41,194 nucleotides of DNA from IMG/VR virus record IMGVR_UViG_3300021368_001084, positions 1 to 41,194 of that record; one strand, given 5' to 3'. Positions 1-23,500 of the stretch are shown piece after piece; the first letter of the stretch is position 1; every line of letters begins with the position of its first letter. The stretch is from a virus. The notes beneath the pieces were generated by a model, which made no database searches, was not told the origin of the DNA, and saw nothing but the letters and a program-made list of their open reading frames with translations. Made by a program: the position numbers and the translations under genes.

Positions 1-126
1 CCTGTCACCAGGGACATGGTTCGTGGGGTCACTGATGAGGGTGATTTTGACGATCACTTCACCGCTGAGGACTATGACCGCAGACGCTACCAGCGTGACG
101 GTTGGGGAACTGTCCCTGGTGACAGG
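1..126. repeat. Perfect 16-bp inverted repeat, arms 1-16 and 111-126
   Basis: The arm at 1-16 (CCTGTCACCAGGGACA) is the exact reverse complement of 111-126 (TGTCCCTGGTGACAGG). The arms are separated by 94 bases and lie inside the upstream reading frame. The repeat may extend left of the window. The right arm ends about 20 bases before a TATAAT-like box. The function is unknown; it could be a protein-binding site, a long-range RNA stem or the end of a larger repeat. Confidence 0.8.
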
Positions 127-2953: not shown

Positions 2954-3346
2954 ATGCCATCCTTTCAGACATTCAAAGATCTGAGCATTACGTTCAAGAA
3001 ACATCCTGTATCGGATGATCTTGTACAGGTAAAAGATAAGGCGGCGATCATTCAGTCGATCACTGCCTTATTGCTTACTAATAAAGGAGAGCGTCCATTC
3101 AATCGTAGAATTGGATCGGATATCAGAAAATCATTGTTTGAACCATTGGACTATGGATCTGCTGGTATCATTAAATCAGCAATTGCTGAATCTCTAAACC
3201 TTCATGAACCTAGGATTAGAGTTTCATCTATTGTTTGTTATCCTAATGTCGCCATGAATGGATATGATATTGAACTAGCATTCATTATCATCGGACGTGA
3301 AGATACACCAGTAGCAGTCGAATTCTTCTTAGAGCGCACACGATAA
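2954..3346 (+). CDS. gp25: Baseplate wedge protein gp25
   Basis: A 130-residue protein, almost the same length as T4 gp25 (132). It shows the GPW/gp25 family signature: a helix QSITALLLTNKGERPFNRRI with NKGERPFNRRIGSDI at residues 43-57, followed by a Phe-Glu-Pro segment. In T4 and related contractile machines gp25 binds the gp6-gp7-gp53 wedge core and contributes to starting sheath assembly. It is the first gene after the late promoter at 2922. Its stop overlaps the gp6 start (TAATG at 3344-3348), so the two wedge partners are translationally coupled. Confidence 0.95.
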   Translation: MPSFQTFKDLSITFKKHPVSDDLVQVKDKAAIIQSITALLLTNKGERPFNRRIGSDIRKSLFEPLDYGSAGIIKSAIAESLNLHEPRIRVSSIVCYPNVAMNGYDIELAFIIIGREDTPVAVEFFLERTR

Positions 3347-5136
3347 TGCCATATACACAGGTTGCTAACTTAGACTTTGAAGATATCAAAGTAGCTCTCA
3401 AAGATTACATGAGAGCACAGACGGAATTTACCGACTATGATTTTGAGGGTAGTGCATTATCCAATCTTATTGACGTATTAGCGTATAACACGTATTACAC
3501 GGCGTTTAACACTAATATGGTAGTCAATGAACTATTCATTGATAGTGCCACTTTAAGGGACAATGTAGTAGCGTTAGCGAAGCAGTTAGGTTACACACCT
3601 AAGAGTATTACTGCTCCAACCGCTTACATTTCCTTTACAGTCACGTATGACAATCCTACGACTGACACAGAACTATTTTTAAAAAAGGGATCTGGATTTA
3701 CAGCAACATATGATGGCACCGTATACCAGTATGTTGTTACTGAAGATGCAAAGGCACAGGTATCAAACGATCAAGCAGTATTTACGAATGTTCCTATTAG
3801 AGAGGGAACACTACTTACTAGTACGTTTACTGTAAATTCCCAAGATTCTCAGCGTTTTATTCTAGACAATAAAGACATTGATAGTAATACCATCAAGGTA
3901 AAAGTTTATCCTGGTGGTGGTTCTTTCAACGAACCATATTTACTTGCAACCAACATCCTAGGTGTAGACGGCAATTCTAAGGTTTTCTTCCTAGACGAGA
4001 TTGAAGATGAAAGATATGAGTTACTATTTGGTGATGGTGTATTAGGAAAGAAACTAGACAACGGAACACTAATCAGTGTTGATTACCTTACTACATCAGG
4101 ACCAGCAAGTAATGGAGTCAAGACCTTTGTTTTCTCTGGTGTATTAGAAAACATCAATGGTGTAACACCTAACAAGTCTATTACAGTACAATCTACTGTT
4201 GCTGCATCGGGTGGTGAAGAGATCGAATCTCTAACAAAGATCAAATACAATGCACCTAAGACATTTGGTGCTCAGGACCGCGCTGTGACCGCTGATGACT
4301 ACGAAGCGATCGTTCGTAACATTTACCCTGCCACAAGTGATATCATCATCTTTGGGGGCGAGGATCAAGTTCCTCCTGAGTATGGTAAGGTATTCATTTC
4401 ATTGAAACCTAAGGATCAGAGTTATCTAACTTCTTTGACAAAACAAGAGATTGTTAAAGAACTGAAGAAGTATGTGGTTGCTTCTGTAGAACCAAAGTTA
4501 ATTGACCCATCAATTTTGTATGTTGAGATTGATAGTAAGATCTATTATGACGGAACTGTAACAGATCAGACACCAGCAAATATCAGAGACAAAGCAATTG
4601 GTGCATTCCAGCAATATATCTCTACTTCTGACACTGAAAAATTCAATGGTAAATTTAGATACAGTAAGGCAGTTGCAGTTATTGACAACGCTGATGTTAG
4701 TATTGGATCTAACTTAACGTCTGTAACAATGAGGAAAGACTTCTATCCTCAGTTAAATTCTACTTTCTATTACGAGATTTGTTATCAAAATCAGTTTGAT
4801 AAGGATTGTGATGATCCTATCCTATCATCTACTGGTTTTAGGATTACTGAGTTCCCTAATTTCGATGTGTATATCGAAGACAGAGGTGGCAAAATTGTCC
4901 TATATAGACTAGATAGCGTAACTGGTGAAAAAGTTGTCCTCGACAGCGAAGTTGGCGAGATAGATTATGTAAATGGTGAGATTAAAATCCCTGCTCTTAC
5001 TATCATTAAGGGTAGTTTCTTTGACAATCGCATTTCGTTTAGAGTAAAACCACTTTCTAATGATATCAAGGCACTCCGTGAGGTTTATCTTGACGTTGAC
5101 GTTGCGAATTCTTCATTCACTGCATACAAAGAGTAA
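3346..5136 (+). CDS. gp6: Baseplate wedge protein gp6
   Basis: 596 residues, somewhat shorter than T4 gp6 (660). The N-terminus (DFEGSALSNLIDVLAYNTYY, about residues 32-51) is typical of gp6/baseplate J-like wedge proteins. Residues about 302-356 carry the family hallmark: NAPKTFGAQDRAVTADDYEA, then a strand with FGGEDQVPPEYGKVFIS. gp6 dimers form the inner iris of the contractile-tail baseplate and bind gp25 and gp7. The gene sits directly between gp25 and the gp7-like giant, the order expected for a T4-like wedge operon. The gap to the next gene is five bases. Confidence 0.93.
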   Translation: MPYTQVANLDFEDIKVALKDYMRAQTEFTDYDFEGSALSNLIDVLAYNTYYTAFNTNMVVNELFIDSATLRDNVVALAKQLGYTPKSITAPTAYISFTVTYDNPTTDTELFLKKGSGFTATYDGTVYQYVVTEDAKAQVSNDQAVFTNVPIREGTLLTSTFTVNSQDSQRFILDNKDIDSNTIKVKVYPGGGSFNEPYLLATNILGVDGNSKVFFLDEIEDERYELLFGDGVLGKKLDNGTLISVDYLTTSGPASNGVKTFVFSGVLENINGVTPNKSITVQSTVAASGGEEIESLTKIKYNAPKTFGAQDRAVTADDYEAIVRNIYPATSDIIIFGGEDQVPPEYGKVFISLKPKDQSYLTSLTKQEIVKELKKYVVASVEPKLIDPSILYVEIDSKIYYDGTVTDQTPANIRDKAIGAFQQYISTSDTEKFNGKFRYSKAVAVIDNADVSIGSNLTSVTMRKDFYPQLNSTFYYEICYQNQFDKDCDDPILSSTGFRITEFPNFDVYIEDRGGKIVLYRLDSVTGEKVVLDSEVGEIDYVNGEIKIPALTIIKGSFFDNRISFRVKPLSNDIKALREVYLDVDVANSSFTAYKE

Positions 5137-5141
5137 AGTAA

Positions 5142-8100
5142 ATGCCTGCTGTAAAGACTAAGAGAATCTCCACTCTGATCGAATCACAGCTTCCTGAGTT
5201 TATTAGTACTGAGTATGAACTTTTTAGTAAGTTCATTCAAAAGTATTATGAAGCGCAGGAGGTCCAAGGTGGCACTTTGGATGTTATTAATAACATTCAA
5301 AAATATGCAGACATTGATTATTACGAAAAGAATTTACTAAAGCAGAACGACATTCTTGCTTCTTCTATTAGTGACTCTGATGTCACTATTGTTTTGAATG
5401 ATGCAAGATCATTTCCAAAGAAGAATGGATATGTCAAGATTGATGATGAGATCATCTTCTATGCTACTAGAACTAATACTGAGTTAAGGAACTGTTCTAG
5501 AGGTGTTAGTGGCAATACAACACTTGGTGACTTGTATGCTGCTTCTAATTTTACTAGCACAGCAGCTGCTGCACATAATTCTGGTCAAAAGGTTCATAAC
5601 ATCAGTAACCTTTTCCTATATGCATTTGTTAAAAACTTTGAAACACAGTATCTGGGTTCTTTCCCTGAGAAGTATCTCAAGGGTGAGATTGATAAGAGAA
5701 CCCTTATCAAGAATATTCAAAAGTTTTACAAGGCAAAGGGAACTGATAGTTCTATCAAGTTTGTATTCAATACTATTGTCGCTAAAGAAATCGACAATAA
5801 ACCAGAAGTATTCAAACCAAGAGATTTTACATATAAGTCATCTGAGTCTGACTGGGTTAATGTACATGCCCTGAAGGTAAAGGTAGTCTCAGGTGATCCT
5901 AAGACATTAGTCGGTCAAACAATTGTCCAAGAGGCGACTGATGAGTATGGATATGCTAGTGCAGTTGTTGACAATACATTTGCTTCAGGAACTTCTGATG
6001 GTGAAGAGATCTATAACATTGTTCTTGCACCAGAAACTATCAATGGTTCTTTTGGTGTCTCAACTAAGACTAAATTAGAATCGACATTACTTGCTGGTGA
6101 TTCTGCTGGTAAGAGAATTGATGTATTCTCTACAATTGGTTGGGATTCTGTTGGAACTATTTTGATTGGTGATGAAGTCATTGAATTTGATGACAAGACA
6201 GTCAATCAGTTTGTTGTAAAAGCAAGAGGAAATAGTCCACAGACCTATGTTGCAGGAGAGTCTGTATACAAACCAGTAACTCTTAAGTCTGGTAGTGTTA
6301 CATTGCTTTCTATGGGCATTGTATACAATCTATCTCCATCCGATTCACATCCATATTCTTATCCTGGTGATAGCATTGAGGTATCACAACCTGGATTTGA
6401 GACTGCTGATCCAAAGATTGTAAGATCTGGCACTAACCAAGCGAGATGGTTGTTCAGCACTGGTAATGTAACATCTGGTAGTGTCCCATATGTTGCTTCT
6501 GATTTAAATCAAACAAAAACAAACGTCTCAGCAATTTTTGAAGACGAACAGTATTATTATATCACAAGTTCTAGTTTTCCATCATATGATATTTTAGATG
6601 GATCTAATGTAACTTTTCCTGTACAAGATCAGAAACTACTAAGACTGATTAGAAAGGTTGCTACAAGAACAACTGAGTCTTATGAGACTCCTAAGAGAGA
6701 TAGTGGCATCTTAGTCAATGGTGTGCCTATTTACAGTCATAAAGACAGTGATAGCGTCAGATATGGTAAACTAGAAAAAATTGATATCAATACTAGAGGA
6801 TCTGGATATACGAAAGCACCTTTTGTTCTAGTTGACGATGTTCCATATAAAGCAAGAGCAATTCTCTCTGGTCAGGTAGTAGAAAGAATTGTTGTTGATA
6901 CAAACGATATTTTTACAAGAACACCTATTGTCAAAATTACATCTGGCAGAAGAGCAGATGTTCGTGCTATTGTCACGCGAGGCAAAGTAACTAGTCTTGT
7001 TATTGATAATCCTGGTGAGTATTATTCCGAAGCACCAGTAGTAAGAATTACAGATACTGCTGGTAAAGGTAGATTCGCTGATTATACAGCAGTAGTAGAT
7101 GCTGACGGAAAATTAGAAAGTTTTAATTTGATTGCAGAAGGAAACTTCTACAGTCAAGACACAGTAAAAGTTGATATTATTCCTATTGGTAGTGGTGCAA
7201 CTGGTATTCCTTCTTTGAAAGAATGGAACTTTAACAGATATGAAAAATTAAAATCTAAATTAGACACCAATAATGGATATCTCTTTGAAAATTACAACAA
7301 TATTTTAGAATATGGTTATGGACATGTTGGTAATCCACAATCTCTTAGAGTTGCACTCAACGATAATGTTAACAGTGCAGGAACTGAACCCTCTACAAAA
7401 ACTCACTCTCCAATTATTGGATTCGCTTATGACGGTAATCCAATCTATGGTCCATTTGGTCATGAGAACCCTCTAGATTCCAATTCATCTATTGTTAGGA
7501 TGACATCTGGTTATTCCCTAAATGGTAGTAGAACAGATGGTCCATCTACAGGTGAGTATAGATTGGGACTGTTCACGAATGACTATTCTTATACACATAA
7601 GAGTGGCACACTAGACGAGAACAATGGAAGATTTTGTATTACCCCAGACTTTCCGAAAGGAACTTATGCTTATTTCCTTACTATTGATAGCAATCAAGTA
7701 CCGCAATATCCATACTTTGTAGGTCAGAATTATTATTCACTACCTGTTGATAGTAACTACAATTCAAATATCAATCAAAACGACATTCCTAAGAATGCAA
7801 AGAGATACTATATTCCTGGCATGTCTAGAAATGGCGAAGGTCTCATTGCTTCTATTTCTGATGTATCTCCTGGAAACGTAGATAACGTAAGTGTTGTAAG
7901 TTCTTCTACAAATTTCTCTAAGAATTCAAAGATTTATTTTGATAACAGAGGAACTGATGGTTCTGAGGTAGAAGCAAACGTATCTTCTGTCACAGGCAAA
8001 TCAGTAAGTTACTTACAATCTAAAGAAGATAAAGTTGTACAGTTAACAACTATTCAAAATGCATATTTGTTCGTTGATGATACTCTAACACAACCATCAT

Positions 8101-11100
8101 CTGGCGCACAAGGAACAATTGTTGGAACAGTTGCAAATGACAATGTAATTGTTTTGAAAAATGTTCAGGGAACATTTGATTCTACAGGAACTTTTGCTTC
8201 TGCAATCGAAACATTCAGTTTACTTCTAGATGAAGAAAGTTCATACACTGATGGTGTAACACTAGAACTAACAAATGGTATTGATCCAGCAATTGCAACT
8301 GCAGAAGTTTTAGAGGGAACTAGTGGTCAAAACCTAGTCAAGATCAAGGTTCTCAGCGGTGACTGGGAAGCAACAAACTATGATTATGCAGATTACTTTA
8401 TTCAGTCTAACAATTTATTTGATACAACTGGATCTAAAATTGTAACAAACACACCACTCAGTAAAGGACTAGAACCTTTTATTGTCAATCAAAGTGTTGC
8501 ATTGATTGAAACAGGATCCAATCATGGATTAGGAATTGGTGACAAAGTAACAATTGACATCAATCCAGATGACACAACAAAGACTAAGACTTATTATTTA
8601 AGGAAAAGGTTGTATCAGGAAATTTCCTTGATTTCTCCAACCAAGGAGACAACCATTAATGATACTGGAATTGGTCGTTATGAAATCCTCAATGGTGGAG
8701 CTGATTATACTGCTGGCACTTACACTAATATTTCTCTTACTGGCGGATCGGGCACTGGTGCCACTGCTACATTCACTGTATCTAATGCTGGTCTAGTTTC
8801 TGGTATCCAAATTCAAGATTCTGGAACTGGATATGCAAGAGGTGATTATCTAAGTGTAGATGATGCTGATTTAGTACGATCTGGAGCATCTCAGTCTACT
8901 GCTAGATTTACAATCTATATTGGTCACGTTGGATTTGCCGCAGAATCTACTTCTCTCACAGTAGATGATCCATTAAATTATGCTGTAAATGATTTGATTA
9001 CTATTGGAGAAGAAGTTCTCAAAATTGTAGCGATTAATGGAAGCACCTTTACTGTAGATAGAGCACAAGAAGGATCTTCTGCTGTTGATCACTTTGATGG
9101 TCAAAAAGTTGTTCTTAAAAACGGTAGATATAATTTTATTGAAGATAGAGAGATTTTCCCTACAAACAATACTGGAACTATTGTATCGTATGATCCTGTT
9201 ACCCAAAAGGTTGTTATTTCTTATGATTATTCTACCACTAAGTTAAATGCAGACGAAGTAATTCTATCTTCTAATTTCTTTGATAATAGCACACCTGCTA
9301 GAGGTGTTAATATCAATACTGTATCAGACTTAGTATTTAAATTTGAGTTTTCTGAAGATAATGTCAATTTCTCTGTAAACCCAAATCTTAATATCCAAGA
9401 ATATTACAAGTACGTATTTGATACTTCTCATTCATCTCTATCTGGAACATATTTTGATATTAGTCCTAGTATCAATTTAAATCTAGTCACCGTAGAGAAA
9501 ACAGAATCTACTATTTTACCAGGAACAGCAGGATCATTCACAGATGTCAAGTTTGGATTTGGTTCTAGATTAGCAGATAATAATTATCAGACAAAAGTTA
9601 GAACAGATTTTTCTAAGTTCTACTACTTTGATCAAAAGAGTATTGTAGATGCAGAAAATAGTTTCTTTACAATCATAACAGATCCTCTACAAGGAACTAA
9701 GGACGTTACTTACGTTACTCCAAATAGATTTGTATATCAAATTGAATCAACTCCTCTGTGGGATGGTTCTGGAGCAATTACATATACAACTACAGGACAA
9801 TTTGCTATTGGTGGTATTCATGAAGTAGCAATTACAAATTCTGGACTGAATTATAAGAAACCACCTATCATTGTTGGTGCTGATCCAACAGAATCTTATA
9901 GAGCATCTGCAACTGCATTGTTTGACCTAGATTCTAAAGTAATCACTGGTGTTAACATCACTGAAAAAGGATCTAACTATGTAAATCCAAAAGTTGTTAT
10001 TACTAATGGTGATGGAGTTGATGCAGAATTCAATATTGTTGTTAGAAATGGAGAGATTTTCTCTGTTACAGTCAAAAATGCTGGTAGGGGATATACATTT
10101 GCACCAGACATTGAAATTGTAGAAAGTCAAATCGATCTAAATGCAGAAGGTTCTTCTATTGGAGTACCTAGAAGTGTTTCTATTGTTAGAAATGGTGGTG
10201 CATATCATTTAGATAATACAGTAGCATCAACATTTACATCCAACTATGTATTTTCACTAACAAATTACACTGGTGAATTTTTAAGAGGTGAAAAAGTAAT
10301 TCAAAAAATTAATAATGTTGAGGTAATGACTGGTGTTGTTACTGAGTGGAGAAAAGGTTCCAACCTATTAAAAGTTAAGAGTGTTACAGGAATTATTAGA
10401 GAGAACCAATCAATTGAAGGTATCGTTTCCAAAACATCTGGAATTATCAGCAAAGTATTCGTAACTGACTTTGCTACAGATATTAGAAGTTTCTATGATA
10501 ATCTAGGATTCTATACTTCTGATAAAGGAAAATTAGGTGTTTCTAATCAAAAGTTAACCGATAGTTTCTTCTATCAAGATTACTCTTATGTTATTAAGTC
10601 TAAGACTTCAATTGAAGAGTGGCGTGATCTTATCAAGTCTACAACACACCCTGCTGGATTTAAACTATTTGGTCAAGTAGATATTGAAACTTCTGCTAGT
10701 GCAGAAATGGAAGCAGAACTTCCAAAGGCATCTCACTTTACTGTAATTCAACTTTGGGACCCAGATAAAAATAAGATTACTGTTGAGAATACAAGAAGAA
10801 CTGTTACACAAACTGTTCAGAAAGTAGAAAACCATAGAATTAGAAAAGGGCAAGGATCTGCTGCTATTTCTGAATTCAACTTCAACGAAACTCGTGCGTT
10901 TGAATTTAGAATTTATAACAATACTGCAGGATTCTATAGTTCAACAATTGCTGCAGGAAAACCATGGTGGACAAAAAATCCATTTGATGGATATTACGAT
11001 ACTGATGGTAGATTACAAGGATCAACTACTTTCCAATTAAGAACTAAGACTCCAGATACTGCATTCACACCTGTAGATGTCAATAGTCTTATCATAAGTC

Positions 11101-14100
11101 TCAATGGTATCTTACAAGAACCAGGAGTGGCGTACACAATATCTGGTGACAATATTGTATTCTCCAATCCACCTTTGGGGGACAATACAAAACTTACTGG
11201 ATCTAACGGTGAAACAACACGTTATGGTGGTGTGGTTTTCTATGGAAAATATTTTGCATTCAAAGATAATCAATACAACACAAGATATCTTAAAAAGATT
11301 AGAAATATTTTCCAACGTGGTGGAACATGGATTGATGCTGCAAACCAAATTGAAAGAAACAAACAGTTTATCATTGAAGAGACTATTGGTTATGCAGTGC
11401 AAGCATATCCAACATTAAACTGGAGTGTAAGACAAGATGATTATGAAACTGATATTGGATTTATTCTAGATGCTTTAAGTCATGATGTTAGATTTGGCGG
11501 TAATATTAAATCTGTTGATTACACAAACATCTTAAATGGCGGTGGAACTGATTACTTACACATTGCAAATTACAAAACTGAATCTATTGCAATGTTCAAA
11601 TATGCTACTACGTTAGCAAGACTTGCAATTAGGAATTGGGATGTTGTTGAAAATAATGTTAACTACATTCAAGGATCAACTAAAATTACACTATCAAGCA
11701 CTGAAAATTTAGTTGCTGGTATGAACGTAAGTTCTGGAAGATCTTATCCATCAGATACTAAAATTGTTTCTGTCGATAGTGATACCGAAATTACAGTTTC
11801 CCGTGCTGCTCTCGCTAACTCTGGAGGAGGCGGTGGTGCTTCTCAGGGCGTCACAAATCTATCTGGAAGTGCTACTACTAATACTACTACTAATACAAAC
11901 ACTGCGGCAGTATTACCTGGAAATACTTTCTCAGTTCCACCAGGAATTACAGTTGGTGTTGCAGTTGCTTTCTCTGGAACTGATACCGCTACATTCTCTC
12001 TAAGTAATATTAATAATGGAACATACTTTGATGCTGCTAATTTGATTGCAGCAAACAGAGCATATATTATTTCCACAGCACTGACTTGGGCACAAACAAA
12101 TTATCCTGGATTGAACTGGGGATCACTTTCTACTAAGTGTGGTAGAGATATTGGTCTTTTCTTAGATGCATATGTTTATCACCTCAAATATGGTGGTAAC
12201 TATAAAATTGTAGAAGCAGCACAATTATATTGGACTAAAACTGATTATCCATATGGTGAGCAATTATATTACATCACTGGACAACTAACTGAAACTGTAG
12301 CTACACTAGAACATGCTAAAGAACTTATGGTTCAAGCAATGAGAAATCTATTGCCAACTACGGATCCTAATGTTTTAGTAGATTCAGTAACTCCAGTTTG
12401 TTCAGAAGTAGAAAGTACTCTCGATACATTCCATAGTATTGTTGATACTATTCTAACAAAAGGAAGAGGAGTAGTTCCTAAGACTAAGGAAAATCTAAAC
12501 AGACCTGGATACTACACTTCTACCCTAACATATTCCAATAACACTATTCTTCCAGATTCTGGTCTTTCTGCACCACCATATACTGAGTGTGCAACAGTAA
12601 TTTCATCTGTTGACTCTCTATTTGGAAATATTAAAAATATTCTTGAAGGACAAAATATTAATCCTACTCTCCCAGATTATGTTGATGGTGAAACAAAAGA
12701 TTTTGAACTTTATTGGGAAGACAATAGTGCTGTTAACCTAGAAGAAGACGAAGATCTATTCTTGACACTTAACGCTGTATTACAAAGACCAAAGTATACA
12801 GAAACTTATCCATTAGAAGATGCATATTACATTGATAGAAGTGTAATTCCAAATATTATCAAGTTTGATGTTGCTCCTATCTGGGATCAAGATTTTGGTG
12901 CAAAAACTATTGGTGAACCTACTGCAGTAGAAAAGGTTGCTGGTATTGGAGTAGGTAATTATAAGAGACTAAAAATTCAACCAGATCTAGTTGATGGAAT
13001 TAAGTCTGGTCCATTTATCATATTGGATGTAGAAGATAATACAGTACAATCCATTGATGATTCTGCATACTTATATGTTTTCTTGGATGGTGTTCTTCAG
13101 AGAGAAGGATTTAGTTATGATATTTCTGGTCCAAACATCTTCTTCAAATCTCCAATTAAACCAGAGATGAAGATTGACATGCGTTACCTCTATGGTAGAG
13201 ACGTTGGTCAAATTCTAAACATCTACGATTTTGCTCCTGACACATATTTTGCAACAGCAGATGTTGCTCTTAACACAACTACTGGAGCAAATACATTTGT
13301 ATTTGATCGCACTGGATGGATGGGAATCTATCAAGGTTTACCTATTCATGCATATCAAGTAAGACCAGACGGAACTAAAAATATTATTGGTGAGATTCTT
13401 AACTACTCCTTGAATGGAAATACTTTGAATCTAGAAGTATTTGGATCTAAAGTTGAACTTATTCAAGGAACAGACGTAACCTTTGTTGTTAAAGGACACT
13501 ATGATGTTTCTACTGCTGTATCATTAAGTGCCAGTGGTTCTACTGTCACATATGATCTTGACAGCGAAGGACGTTTGAGTCTAAAAGATTCTGTCAATTC
13601 TAACTGGGCAAATACTGCTTGGGGTAAGACTTATAAGAAACCATTTATCAGTCTATCAAATGATGATCAAGTTCGTATTGAAGGTGAAGAATCTTTCAGA
13701 AAGATCAAGAAACTACCAACTACAACATCCAGTAAAGAACAGAGACCACAACAACCTGTAAACAACTCTCTGTTTGGAACAGTAGAGGTAAGTGCATATA
13801 GTGGTATCATTCGTGGTGAAGGTCTTTCTGTAATTGCAGAAATTCAAAATGGATCTGTAATTTCATTGACCTGGAATCGCAGAAACTATGAACCTGTCAC
13901 ACAACCGACAGCATATCAATATTATACACCACCAGTCTTACACTTTGTTCCTGAAAATGGAGAGGGTGGCGGTGCTATCGCTGAGGTCATTGTAAGCAAA
14001 GGACAAGTTGTTGCAGTTGAATTGATTGCAGGTGGTTCTGGATATACCAAAGCACCAAAGGTTGTTGTTGCTAGAAGATTTGATGTTCTAAACAACAGAG

Positions 14101-15614
14101 ACATTGGTGTATCAATTATCAATGTTGGAATCAATCCACAGATAGAAACTGCTGGTATGACAGTGGTTTCGACTATTGATATTCTTGGTAACAGACTTAC
14201 AGATATTAGTTCCTTTAGTTCTGTTGACCTTCTCAGTCCTGCAGACACTGATCGTGTTATTAGAGCAGAGATTCAAACTGGAGCTACTGGATTGCCAACA
14301 TCCAATCTTGTGGGTGGTGGATCTGATATGCCAATTGACTCTGAGCAACCTGGCGGTGCTCAGATTGTGTACATCGAACCAGAACCAGTTGAGATTGAAG
14401 GTGTAGGTGGTGCATTAAGATTACAAGATTCTGTATCTGTTCTAAATGCACAGATTCAAGATATTGCTTCTCTGAATTCTATCACAAATACAAGCAGAGT
14501 TATTACTACAGAAGTTACTGGAGTAATTAATAACACTGCACTATCTAACATCAACTACTTTGAGGTTGGTGCATTCTTGGATCTTGAACTTGATGTCACT
14601 GATTACGTTATCTTTATTAGTGATAGCGCAATGCCAAGATTCAAACCACAAGGTTACTTGCTGGTTGGTGATGAAATTATTCGTTATGAAGATACGATGT
14701 TTGATCGTTTCATCTATATTCACAGAGGTGAACTAGGAACAACTCCTAAGACATGGCCACAAGGAACATTCTTAAGACAGATTCCAGATCCAGTATCTGT
14801 TGTATTTGGTGGTGCTACATCTATTACCTCTGATTCTGAACTTGTCACACTATCTGTTGGTGTTGCAGATGGTAGACCAGTAGAGAAGAAGAGACAGTTC
14901 CAAGTAACAACTCCAGTCCCTGACATGGATGTTACCAAAGTCGAAAGACAAATTGAACTAATTCCACCTGGAACTGGTGTTGTTGACAGATATCAAGAGT
15001 CTGCATTTATTGTTGACCCACTGAAGACTAGATCTGGAAATACAACAGGTGGACATGATGGTGAAGTTGATTTGATTGAAGTTCCGCTACTAGGATATCC
15101 TATTATTACTAGAGCAGGAGATACAATTTACGCTCGAAATAGAAAGTTCAGTGCTTTCACTGCATACATCGGAACTTATGAAATTACCAATGTCGGACAT
15201 AGAATTAAGTCCTTTGATATTCTAATGGATGATGGATCTGCAGATGTATCTGGCATCTCACTATTTGAAATTGGAATTTACTTCCCATCACTTACTATTG
15301 GTGACTTTACTGAAAGAGCAGAATCTAGTTATACTAAGGCAGGTGACTACTTCAACCTAGATAAACCATCTGTCCAAAATCCTGTTACAATTAGTTCTAC
15401 ACAAGGAACTATTGGTGGCAACATCGTAGTTCCAAGTACTGCATACTTCCCTGCATCTGGATATATATTCCATGCGGCAGTATCTGGATCACCTAATTTT
15501 GGAGTGATTAAATACACTAGTAAGACCGCAACTACATTTGAAGGTTGCACAGTTCATACTGGATCTACCACTATTGTCAATGGTGCAGAGATCGTTCCAT
15601 TTACAATTGACTAA
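5142..15614 (+). CDS. Giant gp7-like baseplate wedge protein with inserted YHYH and fibre-type modules
   Basis: 3490 residues in one uninterrupted frame. Residues about 160-270 resemble the T4 gp7 C-terminal region: FYKAKGTDSSIKFVF, then VKVVSGDPKTLVGQTI. Residues about 1781-1850 resemble its continuation (FFYQDYSYVIKS, EEWRDLIKSTTHPAGFKLFG; in T4 gp7 a YYVMKI segment and a later HPVGFGF). Between them lie about 1500 residues with a YHYH domain (about 730-865; FAYDGNPIYGP, FCITPDFPKGTYAYF), several GSGYT-type beta modules and three gDEvI-RG modules. After residue 1850 come three NGxLQ-type modules (about 1973, 2519, 2630), two helical DAA-type modules (about 2063-2175 and 2296-2446), another GSGYT module near 2964, and a last gDEvI-RG module (about 3170). 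Position between gp6 and gp8 agrees with gp7, which in T4 (1032 residues) links gp6, gp8 and gp10. The size and insertions are the oddity. Confidence 0.8.
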   Translation: MPAVKTKRISTLIESQLPEFISTEYELFSKFIQKYYEAQEVQGGTLDVINNIQKYADIDYYEKNLLKQNDILASSISDSDVTIVLNDARSFPKKNGYVKIDDEIIFYATRTNTELRNCSRGVSGNTTLGDLYAASNFTSTAAAAHNSGQKVHNISNLFLYAFVKNFETQYLGSFPEKYLKGEIDKRTLIKNIQKFYKAKGTDSSIKFVFNTIVAKEIDNKPEVFKPRDFTYKSSESDWVNVHALKVKVVSGDPKTLVGQTIVQEATDEYGYASAVVDNTFASGTSDGEEIYNIVLAPETINGSFGVSTKTKLESTLLAGDSAGKRIDVFSTIGWDSVGTILIGDEVIEFDDKTVNQFVVKARGNSPQTYVAGESVYKPVTLKSGSVTLLSMGIVYNLSPSDSHPYSYPGDSIEVSQPGFETADPKIVRSGTNQARWLFSTGNVTSGSVPYVASDLNQTKTNVSAIFEDEQYYYITSSSFPSYDILDGSNVTFPVQDQKLLRLIRKVATRTTESYETPKRDSGILVNGVPIYSHKDSDSVRYGKLEKIDINTRGSGYTKAPFVLVDDVPYKARAILSGQVVERIVVDTNDIFTRTPIVKITSGRRADVRAIVTRGKVTSLVIDNPGEYYSEAPVVRITDTAGKGRFADYTAVVDADGKLESFNLIAEGNFYSQDTVKVDIIPIGSGATGIPSLKEWNFNRYEKLKSKLDTNNGYLFENYNNILEYGYGHVGNPQSLRVALNDNVNSAGTEPSTKTHSPIIGFAYDGNPIYGPFGHENPLDSNSSIVRMTSGYSLNGSRTDGPSTGEYRLGLFTNDYSYTHKSGTLDENNGRFCITPDFPKGTYAYFLTIDSNQVPQYPYFVGQNYYSLPVDSNYNSNINQNDIPKNAKRYYIPGMSRNGEGLIASISDVSPGNVDNVSVVSSSTNFSKNSKIYFDNRGTDGSEVEANVSSVTGKSVSYLQSKEDKVVQLTTIQNAYLFVDDTLTQPSSGAQGTIVGTVANDNVIVLKNVQGTFDSTGTFASAIETFSLLLDEESSYTDGVTLELTNGIDPAIATAEVLEGTSGQNLVKIKVLSGDWEATNYDYADYFIQSNNLFDTTGSKIVTNTPLSKGLEPFIVNQSVALIETGSNHGLGIGDKVTIDINPDDTTKTKTYYLRKRLYQEISLISPTKETTINDTGIGRYEILNGGADYTAGTYTNISLTGGSGTGATATFTVSNAGLVSGIQIQDSGTGYARGDYLSVDDADLVRSGASQSTARFTIYIGHVGFAAESTSLTVDDPLNYAVNDLITIGEEVLKIVAINGSTFTVDRAQEGSSAVDHFDGQKVVLKNGRYNFIEDREIFPTNNTGTIVSYDPVTQKVVISYDYSTTKLNADEVILSSNFFDNSTPARGVNINTVSDLVFKFEFSEDNVNFSVNPNLNIQEYYKYVFDTSHSSLSGTYFDISPSINLNLVTVEKTESTILPGTAGSFTDVKFGFGSRLADNNYQTKVRTDFSKFYYFDQKSIVDAENSFFTIITDPLQGTKDVTYVTPNRFVYQIESTPLWDGSGAITYTTTGQFAIGGIHEVAITNSGLNYKKPPIIVGADPTESYRASATALFDLDSKVITGVNITEKGSNYVNPKVVITNGDGVDAEFNIVVRNGEIFSVTVKNAGRGYTFAPDIEIVESQIDLNAEGSSIGVPRSVSIVRNGGAYHLDNTVASTFTSNYVFSLTNYTGEFLRGEKVIQKINNVEVMTGVVTEWRKGSNLLKVKSVTGIIRENQSIEGIVSKTSGIISKVFVTDFATDIRSFYDNLGFYTSDKGKLGVSNQKLTDSFFYQDYSYVIKSKTSIEEWRDLIKSTTHPAGFKLFGQVDIETSASAEMEAELPKASHFTVIQLWDPDKNKITVENTRRTVTQTVQKVENHRIRKGQGSAAISEFNFNETRAFEFRIYNNTAGFYSSTIAAGKPWWTKNPFDGYYDTDGRLQGSTTFQLRTKTPDTAFTPVDVNSLIISLNGILQEPGVAYTISGDNIVFSNPPLGDNTKLTGSNGETTRYGGVVFYGKYFAFKDNQYNTRYLKKIRNIFQRGGTWIDAANQIERNKQFIIEETIGYAVQAYPTLNWSVRQDDYETDIGFILDALSHDVRFGGNIKSVDYTNILNGGGTDYLHIANYKTESIAMFKYATTLARLAIRNWDVVENNVNYIQGSTKITLSSTENLVAGMNVSSGRSYPSDTKIVSVDSDTEITVSRAALANSGGGGGASQGVTNLSGSATTNTTTNTNTAAVLPGNTFSVPPGITVGVAVAFSGTDTATFSLSNINNGTYFDAANLIAANRAYIISTALTWAQTNYPGLNWGSLSTKCGRDIGLFLDAYVYHLKYGGNYKIVEAAQLYWTKTDYPYGEQLYYITGQLTETVATLEHAKELMVQAMRNLLPTTDPNVLVDSVTPVCSEVESTLDTFHSIVDTILTKGRGVVPKTKENLNRPGYYTSTLTYSNNTILPDSGLSAPPYTECATVISSVDSLFGNIKNILEGQNINPTLPDYVDGETKDFELYWEDNSAVNLEEDEDLFLTLNAVLQRPKYTETYPLEDAYYIDRSVIPNIIKFDVAPIWDQDFGAKTIGEPTAVEKVAGIGVGNYKRLKIQPDLVDGIKSGPFIILDVEDNTVQSIDDSAYLYVFLDGVLQREGFSYDISGPNIFFKSPIKPEMKIDMRYLYGRDVGQILNIYDFAPDTYFATADVALNTTTGANTFVFDRTGWMGIYQGLPIHAYQVRPDGTKNIIGEILNYSLNGNTLNLEVFGSKVELIQGTDVTFVVKGHYDVSTAVSLSASGSTVTYDLDSEGRLSLKDSVNSNWANTAWGKTYKKPFISLSNDDQVRIEGEESFRKIKKLPTTTSSKEQRPQQPVNNSLFGTVEVSAYSGIIRGEGLSVIAEIQNGSVISLTWNRRNYEPVTQPTAYQYYTPPVLHFVPENGEGGGAIAEVIVSKGQVVAVELIAGGSGYTKAPKVVVARRFDVLNNRDIGVSIINVGINPQIETAGMTVVSTIDILGNRLTDISSFSSVDLLSPADTDRVIRAEIQTGATGLPTSNLVGGGSDMPIDSEQPGGAQIVYIEPEPVEIEGVGGALRLQDSVSVLNAQIQDIASLNSITNTSRVITTEVTGVINNTALSNINYFEVGAFLDLELDVTDYVIFISDSAMPRFKPQGYLLVGDEIIRYEDTMFDRFIYIHRGELGTTPKTWPQGTFLRQIPDPVSVVFGGATSITSDSELVTLSVGVADGRPVEKKRQFQVTTPVPDMDVTKVERQIELIPPGTGVVDRYQESAFIVDPLKTRSGNTTGGHDGEVDLIEVPLLGYPIITRAGDTIYARNRKFSAFTAYIGTYEITNVGHRIKSFDILMDDGSADVSGISLFEIGIYFPSLTIGDFTERAESSYTKAGDYFNLDKPSVQNPVTISSTQGTIGGNIVVPSTAYFPASGYIFHAAVSGSPNFGVIKYTSKTATTFEGCTVHTGSTTIVNGAEIVPFTID

Positions 15615-15671: not shown

Positions 15672-17486
15672 ATGGCTGCTATTATCTCTGATAAGTTTAG
15701 AATCTTTAATGCTAAACAATTCCTGGAATCTCTTACTGAAGGTCCTAACGACGCCAGTGCAGAGAGATCTAGAATGTATTTCTTTGTGGGTCGTCCACAA
15801 CCATGGAGAGCATACTTAGAAATTTACTCTAAGAATGCTACCGCATTTGTCGTAGGACAAGAAGTTTACGTTGGAACGTATGCTTCGACTGCTTTTAGAG
15901 GCACGATTGCTGCCATCTACGACGGTGCCTTACTTCTCACGGATATCTTTGGTTCTTCTGGTGTTAACTCTGTTCCTACTCTAGGTTCTACTCTTAAGGG
16001 AAGAACTGGTGGAGCAGGCGGTTCTGATACTGGTGCTACTGCTAAGTCTGGTGTATATCGTTATGGAACAGAGGATGTGCCTCCTCTTCCTTTGGATAAC
16101 CAGAGAGAAAAGATTGGTGTTTACGACGAAATTATTGCTGCGAAGAGAATCACTACAAGTTTTGCAAGAACTGTAATTCGCCGCTATAACTGGGATTTGG
16201 TTGCCAACCCTAAGTTTGACATGTGGAAACCAGACTACTCTGCTACTCCAGGTGGCGGTGGTCAGGTTGGTAAAACGACTGCCACAGGTCAATCTGCCAT
16301 TGCCGACGCTAAGTTCTATGTAATGAACTCTTCTTACGAAGTGTTTAAGTGCTTATACAACGGTGAAAATATTGCTAACCCATCTGGTCAGAACGCAACT
16401 GAAGAACCAACTACTGCTGGTGGTAACTATGCATCTGCAACTGGTCTATACACTGAGACTACTGGTGCTGGTTACATCTGGAAGTACATGTATACGATTC
16501 CAACCGATGATGTTCTGAAGTTCCTTTCTTCTGACTTCATGCCAATCGTTCTTAGCACTGATGCATCTCGTCAAGCAGTTGTTGCTCTTGCTGTAGCAGG
16601 TGCAATCGACGTTGCTCTCATCGAAGATGGTGGATCAGGTCTTCCTGCTTCTCAAACTCTTTATACTTCTATCAAGGGTGATGGAAGTAATGGTATTGTC
16701 AAGTTTGACACTGATGGTTCTGGAACTATCACTGCTGCAAGCATTCATGCTCGTGGATCAGGTTACACCTATGGTAACGTTCTCCTAGGTAACGGTAACC
16801 TATTCTCTGATGCTGGTCTAACAACTGCTGTTACAACTGGTGCTTCTGCTGTTGGTGCAATCGAAGTTGTTCTTCCTCCTCAGGGTGGACATGGTTCTGA
16901 CCATGAACTAGAACTAAATGGTAAGCGCGTTATGACGAACATTCGTCTAACCTATGCTGAAGGTTCTGGTGACTTCCCTGTAGATAACGACTTCCGTAGA
17001 ATCGGTATTATCAAGGATCCTCTAGATTGGGGAACAACCAACTTTGCAACATCTGATACACTCTCTGGTCTAAAAGCACTTAAGATCACTGGTGCTAGTG
17101 CAGATTACAACGTTGATGAAAAGATTACTCAAACTGTTTCTGGTGGAACTGCATACGGCACAGTTGTTTCTTGGACACTAGATAGTGGTTCTACAACCGC
17201 TGGTGTTCTTAAGTACATCCAAACAAATGACGCTCACCTTGATCAAGGTGTTGTAAGAGCATTTGAATCTAATGGTTCTAACGCTGTTACTGGAGAAGGT
17301 TCTACTGCTTCTGGTAATGTAGACACTGGATATGGTTCTTCACTACTAGGTGTCACTTTCGCAAGTGGACTAGCAGCACCTGAGATTGAAAATAACTCTG
17401 GTGACATCATTTACGTTGAGAACCGTCGTCTCATCACTCGTGCTCCTGACCAAATCGAAGATATCAAACTTGTTATTGAATTCTGA
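15672..17486 (+). CDS. gp8: Baseplate wedge protein gp8, enlarged
   Basis: 604 residues against 334 in T4 gp8. Family features recur in order: FFVGRPQPWRAY near residue 36 (T4 has FGRSEPW), a central GAGYIWKYMYTIP (T4 GDGYVWEYLFEIP), DNDFRRIGIIKDPLD, and the C-terminus SGDIIYVENRRLI then PDQIEDIKLVIEF (T4 SGEMIYMENRPPI and DQTEEINILFTF). Extra material includes an insertion near residues 50-115 (GQEVYVGTYASTAFRGTIAA), a GSGYT-type module near 315-370, and another inserted module near 480-530. gp8 dimers bind gp7 and gp10 in the wedge, so parallel growth of gp7 and gp8 is suggestive. The gene has its own late promoter and is closed by a strong terminator. Confidence 0.92.
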   Translation: MAAIISDKFRIFNAKQFLESLTEGPNDASAERSRMYFFVGRPQPWRAYLEIYSKNATAFVVGQEVYVGTYASTAFRGTIAAIYDGALLLTDIFGSSGVNSVPTLGSTLKGRTGGAGGSDTGATAKSGVYRYGTEDVPPLPLDNQREKIGVYDEIIAAKRITTSFARTVIRRYNWDLVANPKFDMWKPDYSATPGGGGQVGKTTATGQSAIADAKFYVMNSSYEVFKCLYNGENIANPSGQNATEEPTTAGGNYASATGLYTETTGAGYIWKYMYTIPTDDVLKFLSSDFMPIVLSTDASRQAVVALAVAGAIDVALIEDGGSGLPASQTLYTSIKGDGSNGIVKFDTDGSGTITAASIHARGSGYTYGNVLLGNGNLFSDAGLTTAVTTGASAVGAIEVVLPPQGGHGSDHELELNGKRVMTNIRLTYAEGSGDFPVDNDFRRIGIIKDPLDWGTTNFATSDTLSGLKALKITGASADYNVDEKITQTVSGGTAYGTVVSWTLDSGSTTAGVLKYIQTNDAHLDQGVVRAFESNGSNAVTGEGSTASGNVDTGYGSSLLGVTFASGLAAPEIENNSGDIIYVENRRLITRAPDQIEDIKLVIEF

Positions 17487-17583: not shown

Positions 17584-20500
17584 ATGCCACAGAAGACTAA
17601 CCTTAACGTAAGCCCTTACTACGAGGATTTTGATGCGAATAAGAATTTCTATAAAATTCTTTTCCGTCCTGGATATTCGATTCAAACTAGGGAACTAACT
17701 CAGTTACAATCGATCCTTCAAAACCAAGTAGAAAGCTTTGGTAAATTCTCTTTCAAACAGGGTGAGATGGTCATCCCTGGTGAAATTGGATTAAATACAA
17801 AATTAGATTTTGTTAAACTATCCTCTGTATCAGAGGTAGCGGTTAGCGAAGGCGATGACATTGTATACAAGAAGTATGACATTACACAGTTGGTAGGGCA
17901 GACTGTGTTGGGTCTAACTTCTGGTGTTCAAGGAACTATTCTGTCAACTAGACTAGCAACAGAGAGTTCTGCGGATACTCTGTATGTAAACTATCTTAAC
18001 AGTGGTAATTCTAATACTGAGTCTACTTTTAGACAAGGTGAGACACTAGAAGTTGTAGATGGTGTTAACACTCCACTGTTGGTAGTTGGAACAGACGGCA
18101 GTGTTCTTCCTACTAGTATCAATGTAACAAATCCTGACACTGGAGAAGTAACATCTCTAGAAAGTCCAGCGATGGGTTTTGGTTCTGCTGTACAAGTAGA
18201 AGAAGGAATTTATTTTGTTAATGGATATTTTGTTCGCAATGACGCATCTATTCTAGTCATTGATGAATATTATAATAAACCATCTGCAAAAGTTGGTTTT
18301 ACAATTAAAGAAGAAATTGTAACTCCAGAAGAAGACGCATCTTTATATGATAATTCTATTGGTGCATCAAACCAAACTGCACCTGGAGCACACAGATTAA
18401 AAATTACTTTATCTCTAAAAGAGTTTGCTCTAGATGCAGTTACTGACAAAAACTTTATTCAATTACTTACTATCTCAAGAGGAGTAATTAGAAAGAAAGT
18501 AAGTGTTGCTAATTATAATCTTCTTGAACAAACTTTAGCACGTAGAACTTTTGATGAGTCTGGTGACTATGTTGTAGAGAACTTCTCTATTGATGTCAGA
18601 GAGTATGCACAAAAAGAAGGAAATCGTGGTATCTATGGTGCTGACGAATTTGGTCTTTACAATAATCTAACTGCTGGCGAAGCATCTAGAAAGATGATTG
18701 CTAGTATTGGTCCTGGTAAAGCATATATTAAAGGTTTTGAAATTGTCAATAAAGAAACCAAGTACATTGAAATTAATAAGGCAAGAGAAAGTCTTTCTAG
18801 TGACAATGTAACTCTAAAGTCTAGAGGTCTTCCAACTTTCAGTATTACTAATGTATTTGGTAGTGTTCCTCTGAACAAAGAAGGATCTGAATTAACAGCA
18901 TACCCTGAAATCAGTCTGTTCACATCATTCAATGATGGTAGTGATGGTTCTAGTAATACAGAATTATCTACTGCACATCGCCAGACTATTTCTAGAAGAG
19001 GAACTAACTTCTCTCCAGAAGATGGAATTAAAACCATCTGGATTCAAATGACCAGTGCAACATTTAATATTGGTCAAGTTGATGAAGAAGCTTTGGCAGG
19101 AACCAAGAGTGGTGGACCAAACATTAATGAACTTCACGTTATCAAGACTAGAACTGGTAGTGATGTTGTTACTACAACACTCAAGTGCTTGTCTTACGCA
19201 AAAGTAAATAACTTCCTAGTCAATTCTTCTGCTGCAGAATTCTTCTTAGAACTTACTGTTGTAGGTAAGAAAGATGAGGTAGAACTACTTCTAACTGATT
19301 ATGATGGAGAAGATTCTGGTGATTATAGAATCATCTATCTTTCCGAAGCAGATGCTAGAAATGACACGCAGTTTGGTCGTGTTGTTGATTATAGTCCAAC
19401 AATTACCCCACTAATCGGTAAAGTAAAACCAAATAACTTCTACTTACAGCAAAGAGGATCTGGATTCAATTCTGATTCTGATATCATTCTTTCTAAAGGT
19501 CGTCTTGCTGAAGGAACCAGTGCATACAATAGTATTTTTGGTTTATCTTATTTTGATCCATCATTCTTCACAAAAATTCTTTTAGAGAAGCAACCACCAA
19601 ACACATTTAAAGGTGGTAAGTATATCTTTGGAACACAAAGTGGAGCATATGGTGTAATCGAAGAGACTTCCGCTGGAAGATATTCGACAAATAATATTTT
19701 GTTTGTTAAAACTCTATTTGGTAAGTTCTTACCTGGAGAAACTTTGAGAGATGAAGATGCAAACACAGCAAAAATTGCTGCAGAAAATACAATCTCACAT
19801 TTCATCATTCAAAACAGAGGTGGTAATTATAACTCTGCATCTCTAATTAAATTGAATGGTGTTACTATTGATGCTTCTAAGATTGAACTAAATGTCAGTT
19901 CTGCTGGAAATATTCTACAAGCACTTATTAAAGATAGAACTGCATTTAAGACTCAGTATCCACAACCACCATCTGTAACTATTGAGCAACCTGCAGGGTC
20001 TGGAACTCCATCTCCTGCTGCAAATATCACACCAGTACTATTTAAAAATACTGTAACTACATTTACACCACAGAATGTCAAGTCTATTGGTTGTTCATAT
20101 GGTTCTGGTAATGCAAATACATTCAGTGCAGACGTTGTAGTTAGTGATAAAAAGTATTCGACAATTAAAAACGTCACTGACTTTACATTCTTTGGATCTA
20201 AAGGATATAACTTTATTGAATCCACAAGTTTCAGTGCTGATGCATCTGGACTAGTATCTCAGGGAGATATTATTCAATTCAGTGATGAAGATAATAATAC
20301 AGTTAAAGCAACTGTACAATATGCAACTGATCAAGAAGGAACAGCAAAAACTAGAATTTATCTAGATACTCTCCTTCCTGGAAATGTTGTTAATTCTAGT
20401 GTAGTTGTATTCAGACCAGCAGTTCAAAATGCTAGTAAGGGTTCTCTAATTTTCCCAACTGGCAGTAAGCAGATTCAACAAATTTCTGCAGGAACAGAGG

Positions 20501-23500
20501 ATACAAATATCAAGTATTTCTTCCGTAGAGATTTTGTTACTACTGCCTCAAGTAGTGGTGGTGTTATCACATTCGCAGCACAACTACCATTCGGCACACA
20601 AAGATTTACTGCATTTAATGAAAACAATTATATTATCACAGTTCTAGATCCAGGTGATGCTCCTGATATTGCTGCAGGTGATATTGTATACATTCCTGCT
20701 GATACCGTATCAATTAGTTCTGCAACAGACACTGCTAGTGGTTTGACATCTGGTAGTTTGAGTCTCGAATTAGACTCAAATTATTTTGGTAGTATTCCTT
20801 CCAATGGAACGTTCCCTAAACTAAAACTCACTGCAACTCTAGAAGTAGAAAATGCAAAACCAAGATTAAAGACAGTTATTAGAAACAAGCAAATTGTCAT
20901 CACATCTCCTGGTGATCGTGTTATTCCATTCAGAGGAACACAATATGACAGTGAGGTTGTAGAAGTTCTATCTTACGCTGATGCTTTCCGTCTAAGATAT
21001 GTTTATGAAGGAACTGTATCACAACCACCAGAAATTGATAGTGCTGGAAACTTAATTTCTGGAACAGATGTAACTGATAGATTTAGTTTTGATAATGGTC
21101 AGAGAGACACTGTATATGATGTCTCTAGACTAGTTTTAAAACCTGGATTTGAACAAACTACTGGTCAATTAGTTATTGGTTTTGATTACTTTAACCATTC
21201 ACAGGGAGATTTCTGCACTATTGATAGTTATCTCCACGAGGCGGGTGTTACAGAAGATGAAATTCCTTCTTTCAACTCCGTTGTTCATGGAAACTTAGAA
21301 CTCAAAAACGTATTTGATTTTAGACCAAAGGTAGACAGTAACACAATTGTCACAGGTTTCCAAGATACTGCATCTCTTTCTGTTGCAGATGGAAACTTTG
21401 CAGGAGCAGGAGCAGTCTATGCTAGTTCCCCAGCACCTGATACAAACCTAGAATTTACTTTCTCATTCAGTCAAGTACAATACCTTGATCGTATTGATGG
21501 TATTTTCCTCAACAAATCTGGTGAGTTTGTTGTAAAAGAGGGCAACTCTTCACTCAACCCAACTAAACCAGATTCGATTAGCGATGCTGTTCCACTATTC
21601 TATGCATATATTCCTGCATATACTAAGACCAGTAAAGATGTAAGAATTACTTCTGTTGATAATCGTCGCTATACGATGCGCGACATTGGTAAACTAGAGA
21701 AGCGTATTGAACGTCTTGAATATTATACTGTTCTCAGTATTCTTGAGCAGCAAGCACTCAACATGCAAATCAAAGATGAAATTGGATTAGATAGATTCAA
21801 GTCTGGTTTCTTCGTTGATAATTTTGAAGAGCATAAAGTTGGTAATCTTGCATCTAGAGATTATAGATGTTCTATCGATAGTCAACAGTCTGTCCTTCGT
21901 CCACAAGCAAAAGAAGATTCTATCAGACTAAAAGAAGTTAATGTAAGAGATGATCAGAGAATCGTATCTGGATATAAGAAGTCTGGAGATATTATTACTC
22001 TACCATATACATCTCTTTCTTTACTAGGAAATAGTTTTGCTTCTAAGAAAACAAATCCAAATCCATTTGTTGTTCTTCAGTATGTTGGCGATGCATCAAT
22101 CTCACCTTCTATTGATCAATGGTATGATCAAACTGTAGATCCTCTAGTTGTTGATACTAACACTAGTTTGTTTAATATTTTCTTAGCAAAAGAATCTGTA
22201 GTCGAAAGTTTCTCTAGTCTTTTCAATTCCTTTGTTGTCAACTGGGTTGGAACATCTTCTAGTTTCACTTCTATCAATTCTTTAGGAGAAGTATCTTCCC
22301 TAGCAGCAAATGCATCTGTTGATAGTGCAAAAGTAGGAAGTTCTTCTAACATTAGTCCTAACAATAACCAAATTGGTAAGGGAGTCTCATCTAAGACTGT
22401 TGGAGACAGCACTGTTTCTACAGCGTTGTCATTCTTTGCTAGATCTAATGTAATTAAGTACACAATTCGTAGACTAAAACCAAATACAAAGATTTCTGTA
22501 TTCCTAGAAGGAAGAAACATTAATCGTTGGGTTAATCCTGACTTGAGATTTAGTGGTATTGCTGGTAGTTCTCTTTCCGCGTTCAATGGAGAAGTTTCTA
22601 CAGATGAAAATGGTAATGCAAGTGGAATTATTCTACTCCCTGCAGGCGCACCTCCAAAAGAGAATTCTACTTGGACTGGAGATTTGAACACTGTAGAGTA
22701 TGACAACGATGCGGAAGAAATTAGAGTAACTACAGGCATCCAAACATTCAGATTTACATCTAGTTCTACTAACGAGTCAAAAGCGGACGTAGATACATAT
22801 GCCGAAGTTAAGTACTATGCAACTGGTGTTCTTCCTGAAAACCCTGCAAGTATTGTTTCCACAAAACCAGCATTCTTCAAAGCAAATGAAGGTGTTCAGT
22901 TTGTTGACAATAACACAGATAATCCTGTAAGACCTAACCCACTTGCACAAACATTTAAAGTTGAGAACTTTGAAGGTGGTTGTTTTGTAACCAGTGTTGA
23001 TCTTTTCTTTGCTAAGAAGAGTAAGAACATTCCTCTAAGAGTTTATCTAACAGATGTTGCTAGTGATAAACCAGGAAAAAATATTATTCCTGGAACAGAA
23101 AAATCATTGCTACCAAATACGTTACTTAAGTGTTACACAAATGGCAACGTTAAGGTATCAAAAGGAGAATTTGTTACTGGAGCAAGTTCTGCAGCATCTG
23201 GTCCTATCCTAAAAGTTATTGACAAGAATGGAATCGACCTTGTTCCATCTTCTACAGGAGTCTTTGGACTTTCCAATGAAATGGTTTATACGTTGGTTCT
23301 TGATAACCACAACGGTAAATCTTTTGTTCAAAACGAAGATCTAATTATTCCTTCTGTAACTCTTGCTAATAACACTGACGGAACTGCTCTAAAACTTACA
23401 TTAGCAAAAGATAGTGGTAGAGTTTCCGCTATCAATATTACAAATCCAGGAAACAATTATGATAGCGCACTTCTAACAATTGAGAGTCCACAACTCCCAG

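Follow-up and report, generated by a model that had tools for sequence, protein, structure and literature searches.

A gp7-type baseplate wedge protein of a T4-like cyanophage with its conserved core split by insertions

Results

The window analyzed here is the whole 41,194 nucleotides of IMG/VR record IMGVR_UViG_3300021368_001084, and derives from a T4-like Synechococcus phage whose close named relatives are S-WAM2, S-CAM4, and S-RSM4. It contains an open reading frame (ORF) of 3490 aa, with an ATG at position 5142 and a stop codon ending at 15614, that is located between the genes encoding gp6 and gp8, i.e., at the location of gene 7 in T4 (Table 1). The gp8 gene is adjoined by an ORF encoding a DUF4815 (PF16075) VrlC-like protein (17584-25704), a kind of protein proposed in the literature as a replacement for gp7. 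A tRNA-Leu(TAA) called by ARAGORN inside this ORF, on the opposite strand (19986-20076, minus), is probably a false positive.

Table 1. Genes and sub-gene features at the gp7 locus of the window (residues are those of the 3490-aa ORF)
Feature	Position	Strand	Evidence or remark
gp25 by position	2954..3346	+	Synteny: gp25 precedes gp6 in S-WAM2
gp6, wedge-core partner of gp7	3346..5136	+	phrog_219 E 1.7e-207, PF21379 E 2.1e-19
gp7 homologue, 3490 aa, split core and C-terminal extension	5142..15614	+	Homology; gp6/gp8 flanks
Core piece N, residues 6-59, corresponding to T4 gp7 helical domain (PF21428, T4 643-689)	5157..5318	+	45 bits
Site 1b insert, residues 60-158, "..GYVKIDDEIIFYA.." module	5319..5615	+	OC comparison, repeats
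Core piece M, residues 159-305, comprising FYKAKG helix plus domain-V-like beta domain	5616..6056	+	42.8 bits
Site 2 insert, residues 306-1787	6057..10502	+	Right border uncertain by ~80 residues
GxGY beta repeats left of YHYH, residues 541-676	6762..7169	+	Predicted beta-rich, pLDDT ~90
YHYH domain, residues 706-958, with YAYF at the motif	7257..8015	+	Only His755 invariant
GxGY repeat, strongest copy, residues 1601-1659	9942..10118	+	Repeat comparison
Second domain-V-like stretch, residues 1700-1770, which may be a duplicate	10239..10451	+	hhalign 25.6% vs controls 0.0-0.4%
Core piece C, residues 1788-1850, D-S-x-Y-Y-Q-x-F-S-Y ... H-P-A-G-F	10503..10691	+	55.4 bits
C-terminal extension, residues 1851-3490, most variable part	10692..15611	+	Helical repeat at 2060-2127 and 2292-2359
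gp8	15672..17486	+	phrog_438 E 1.8e-175, PF09215 E 4e-13

Sequence comparisons, using the T4 gp7 sequence of GenBank record NC_000866 in every test, confirmed this ORF as a gp7 homologue of a T4-like cyanophage, with the conserved core of T4 gp7 present in three collinear pieces. The original prediction held that two segments of the ORF, one containing FYKAKGTDSSIKF (beginning at residue 195) and LVGQTI (near residue 257), and the other containing YSYVIKS (beginning at residue 1814) followed by THPAGFKLFG, resemble neighbouring parts of T4 gp7 and are separated by about 1500 residues. When profiles of the cyanophage pieces were compared with eight T4-family gp7s using hhalign, residues 149-300 (94.3%) and 1691-1860 (87.5%) matched in order and at adjacent places in T4 gp7, while each of four control pieces, drawn from inserted and extension sequence, scored below 1%; core piece M is matched to T4 gp7 729-756 (94%), with its domain V region at 83.8% to compact gp7, and residues 1691-1860 correspond to T4 gp7 778-895. 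The resemblance therefore stands, as does an insertion of ~1480 residues after the counterpart of T4 gp7 domain V, but the split is not single: a further ~99 residues are inserted at residue 60, after the N-terminal helical domain, leaving three core pieces. The segment containing LVGQTI does match gp7, but piece M extends to ~305, with LVGQTI inside the domain-V region. Fibre-type modules including a YHYH domain are present between the two segments as proposed (PF14240 at residues 726-854, E 4.6e-30), and 1642 residues remain after piece C, where about 1600 had been estimated.

Profiles built only from five uninterrupted gp7s scored 45.1, 42.8, and 55.4 bits on the window ORF for core pieces N, M, and C, respectively, against at most 2.7 bits for shuffled copies and at most 5.7 bits for other ORFs of the window. 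ORF residues 1-75 alone gave no significant direct match to T4-family gp7s with hhalign; piece N is tied to T4 gp7 because compact gp7s bridge both, aligning with T4 gp7 645-891 across the whole core (97.7%, E 1.4e-12), a region that spans Pfam Gp7_helical (643-689) and domain V (766-861). For example, the uninterrupted 631-aa gp7 of Ochrobactrum phage OC, encoded at the same gene position, matches T4 gp7 733-923 with its residues 92-311 (E 9e-8), and forms three collinear HSPs with the window ORF (window 8-59 to OC 6-57, 175-246 to 60-140, and 1710-1850 to 160-279, the last with E 4e-13). The window ORF also matched PF23786 "Baseplate_wedge" with E 0.0084, below the family cut-off; a direct sequence search of the PDB with residues 1-303 found nothing; and the gp7 core profiles do not match the window gp6, i.e., gave no sign of paralogy with it.

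We folded the natural uninterrupted gp7 of L176 (449 aa) with AlphaFold2. The model has low confidence (pLDDT 58, pTM 0.29), and yet its top three PDB matches are chains as long as gp7 in the baseplate entries 9f4a (Klebsiella phage Lilla1; E 4e-10), 5iv5 (T4; E 3e-8), and 5hx2 (T4; E 6e-7), followed by XM1; the match table carries no chain names, and these chains are taken as gp7 from their length and the entry concerned. Both insertion sites are located between helices or strands predicted for L176, with site 1b (~57-62) flanked by helices 43-48 and 62-71, and site 2 (~200-216) following the beta domain.

Comparison of the insertion boundaries across gp7-position proteins bore out the proposed split, with phages carrying an uninterrupted gp7 making it visible: the pieces are collinear in 202 of 202 relatives that contain all three, in a sample gathered with gp7 queries that includes many near copies and reduces to 92 representatives below 80% identity. 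The uninterrupted proteins are 449-631 aa long. At site 2, the gap ranges from ~16 residues (no insert, as in L176, L177, L178, L180, and OC) to 2634 residues, and all 78 of 78 YHYH domains lie inside the site 2 insert. The first gap, measured on representatives, is bimodal (4-20 or 102-128 residues), and reaches 609 residues in S-RIM2. A single gp7 homologue was present in 14 of the 15 relative records scanned, S-B43 having two, both split; a separate unsplit gp7, the observation that the original prediction had set against itself, was found in none of the complete cyanophage relatives scanned. The two gp7-type ORFs of S-B43 (MN018232.1) lie at 131238-137726 and about 40176-47714 (minus strand); one is short, at 2162 aa, and has unrelated genes after it; this record is possibly a chimeric assembly.

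Both inserts consist in part of recurring modules. The GYVKIDDEIIFYA module of site 1b recurs at ORF residues 324-369, 3168-3202, and 3427-3470. At 97-109 residues, the shortest insertions (L189, L191, L054, and L185, with L188 similar) look like one GxGY module; copies of this module are also found in the window insert, the C-terminal extension of the same ORF, and other structural ORFs. In S-RIM2 (residues 60-665), GxGY repeats enlarge the site 1 insert, and seem to split a "DDEIIFY" module, i.e., an insertion within an insertion. A weaker domain-V-like stretch precedes piece C (Table 1), which is why the right border of site 2 is uncertain; this stretch is only suggestive of a duplication of domain V on either side of the insert. 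The first insertion is located at core position ~41 in the pelagiphage/Methylophilales type and at ~60 in cyanophages, the inserts at these positions are unrelated to each other (2.3%), and the core tree (unrooted, with many weak forks) also requires two changes. These observations support the view that the insertions of the two lineages arose independently, in different loops of the gp7 helical part.

Conservation, measured across 50 full-length relatives as their average identity to the window, identified the core pieces as islands (0.66-0.75), with the YHYH domain at 0.62, the site 1b insert at 0.63, the remaining insert at 0.48-0.57, and the last 490 residues lowest (0.36, with many gaps). 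As the YHYH domain is among the better conserved parts of the insert, a role as a variable receptor binder is disfavoured, and as variability peaks at the far C-terminus, any contact with a receptor would more likely be made by the C-terminal extension than by YHYH. In PMC7824862, YHYH is predicted to act as a metal-dependent hydrolase bearing a His triad. Among 45 gp7-borne copies, His755 is the sole invariant His, Asp708, 764, 814, and 825 are conserved, and the His triad with Asp required of such a hydrolase was not found; a catalytic role for these copies is doubtful given the single invariant His and the YAYF at the motif. A predicted YHYH model had no significant match in the PDB, and returned other cyanophage YHYH and wedge proteins from a viral structure library.

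Discussion

Our analysis makes it highly probable that this giant protein is a gp7 orthologue whose core joins two gp6 molecules per wedge, and whose inserted modules would form the outer wedge and anchor fibres or touch the cell. The conserved core would comprise the helical core-bundle domain, the trifurcation helix, domain V, and then the YxY..HPAG segment, and would keep the usual job of gp7, i.e., joining the two gp6 molecules in each baseplate wedge. We infer that the insertions occupy loops facing away from the gp6 contacts, that the separated pieces come together to fold as the core, and that the inserted beta modules make the outer wedge, where they may replace T4 gp7 residues 1-640, gp10, and gp12, which have no recognisable cyanophage forms. 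The insert probably grew through addition and copying of GxGY and "DDEIIFY" modules. Host-contact modules would be displayed on the baseplate wedge, and contact with fibres or the host would most likely involve the variable C-terminal end, given its sequence divergence. There is a precedent for additions at both in-core and C-terminal positions, since the gp7 orthologue of XM1 (gp17) binds tail spikes via an in-core loop (80-106) and its C-terminus (PMC10457771); at 242 aa, with unresolved stretches of 27 and 42 residues, it is likened to the window sites by analogy only.

The giant gp7 protein of one relative has been shown to be in the virion: S-SZBM1_208 (6619 aa), which has the three core pieces at 7-58, 675-814, and 3522-3579 and a YHYH domain at 1381-1716, was detected by mass spectrometry with 71 peptides and 13.5% coverage (PMC9146016). 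The covered length (~890 residues) exceeds the core (~250 residues), and non-core sequence is therefore present in particles. These peptides do not discriminate between a full-length protein and fragments, and would also be expected of a polyprotein, in which post-synthetic cleavage excises or breaks up the insert, with the wedge core reassembled from fragments and the modules becoming separate virion proteins. T4-like phages do carry a prohead protease. However, Pfam found no intein-type domain in the ORF, and S-SZBM1_208 was scored as one protein, though bottom-up mass spectrometry cannot decide the matter; we regard processing of this kind as improbable.

We consider it more improbable still that a giant fibre or adhesin has merely captured gp7-like fragments, with the true gp7 function residing elsewhere, e.g., in a VrlC-type protein. 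Fibre-type modules do make up most of the ORF, and cyano- and pelagimyophages have been stated to lack gp7, with VrlC in its place (PMC7029224). However, the core pieces are in order in all 202 relatives and are the most conserved parts of the protein, the ORF holds the gp6-gp7-gp8 position, the complete genomes scanned contain no other gp7, and the VrlC-like ORF gives a marginal match of at most 5.7 bits to the gp7 core profile. The presence of a gp7 core, as detected by our profiles, contradicts the published absence. Chance similarity or an assembly artefact, for which only the shortness of the motifs and the distance to T4 speak, is refuted by shuffle and reverse controls and by recurrence of the pieces in 470 and 477 phage records, with the same layout in many isolates, and we give it practically no credence.

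Returning to gp7 as a wedge protein with added modules, we propose, with distinctly less confidence and as a possibility that falls somewhat short of even odds, that gp7 is a general evolvable scaffold whose wedge-core loops act as hot spots for insertion (~60 in cyanophages, ~41 in the pelagiphage type, and ~205 in both and in others), that the surface modules at these sites are unrelated and independently placed, and that in marine T4-like phages the wedge core protein itself, rather than a fibre attached to it, has become a host-sensing platform.

Relative to known systems, T4 gp7 (1032 aa; PDB 5IV5, 5HX2; PF21428, PF21427, PF21456) has a homologous core (645-891) in the same order and at the same gene place, but this core is uninterrupted and preceded by a 640-residue N-terminal extension, whereas the window protein starts at the core and has its additions internally and C-terminally. 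The T4 N-terminal domains (1-640) had no match in cyanophages, since a search of their genomes with whole T4 gp7 gave only short matches, in Sf-FS3 and S-B43, and to the core only; compact gp7s also lack this region, and it is thus not defining for the wider family. The compact gp7s (PF23786; e.g., L176 and OC) have all three core pieces in common with the window ORF, and differ from it in having no insertions. In the same family are cyanophage entries named "baseplate wedge initiator" or gp7 in S-CRM01, ACG-2014f, S-CAM9, S-RIM8 A.HR5, and S-SZBM1_208; the database records supply the name only, and we confirmed the split layout in S-CRM01, ACG-2014f, S-CAM9, and S-SZBM1_208. The protein of S-WAM2, the closest named relative, is annotated just as "structural protein".

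Sullivan et al. 2010 placed gp7 in the non-cyanophage core, with divergent cyanophage copies expected (PMC3037559). The identity of these proteins is thus partly known from annotation, while the split architecture appears to be new: the literature searched, with subscription journals mostly outside the search, contained no account of the split core, of where its insertions lie, or of how these are distributed. PHROGs phrog_4406, phrog_701, and phrog_3465 assign gp7-type proteins to "head and packaging" or "head closure Hc2", and automatic annotation of cyanophage and pelagiphage genomes will be misled by this.

T4-like cyanophages are among the most abundant viruses of the ocean, and their missing wedge protein now has a sequence. 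The split core predicts which three short pieces a map of a cyanophage baseplate will show at its centre, and yields a defined set of modules for testing in fibre anchoring or host contact. A protein once reported missing, gp7 appears to be the scaffold for much of the outer tail equipment of the virus.
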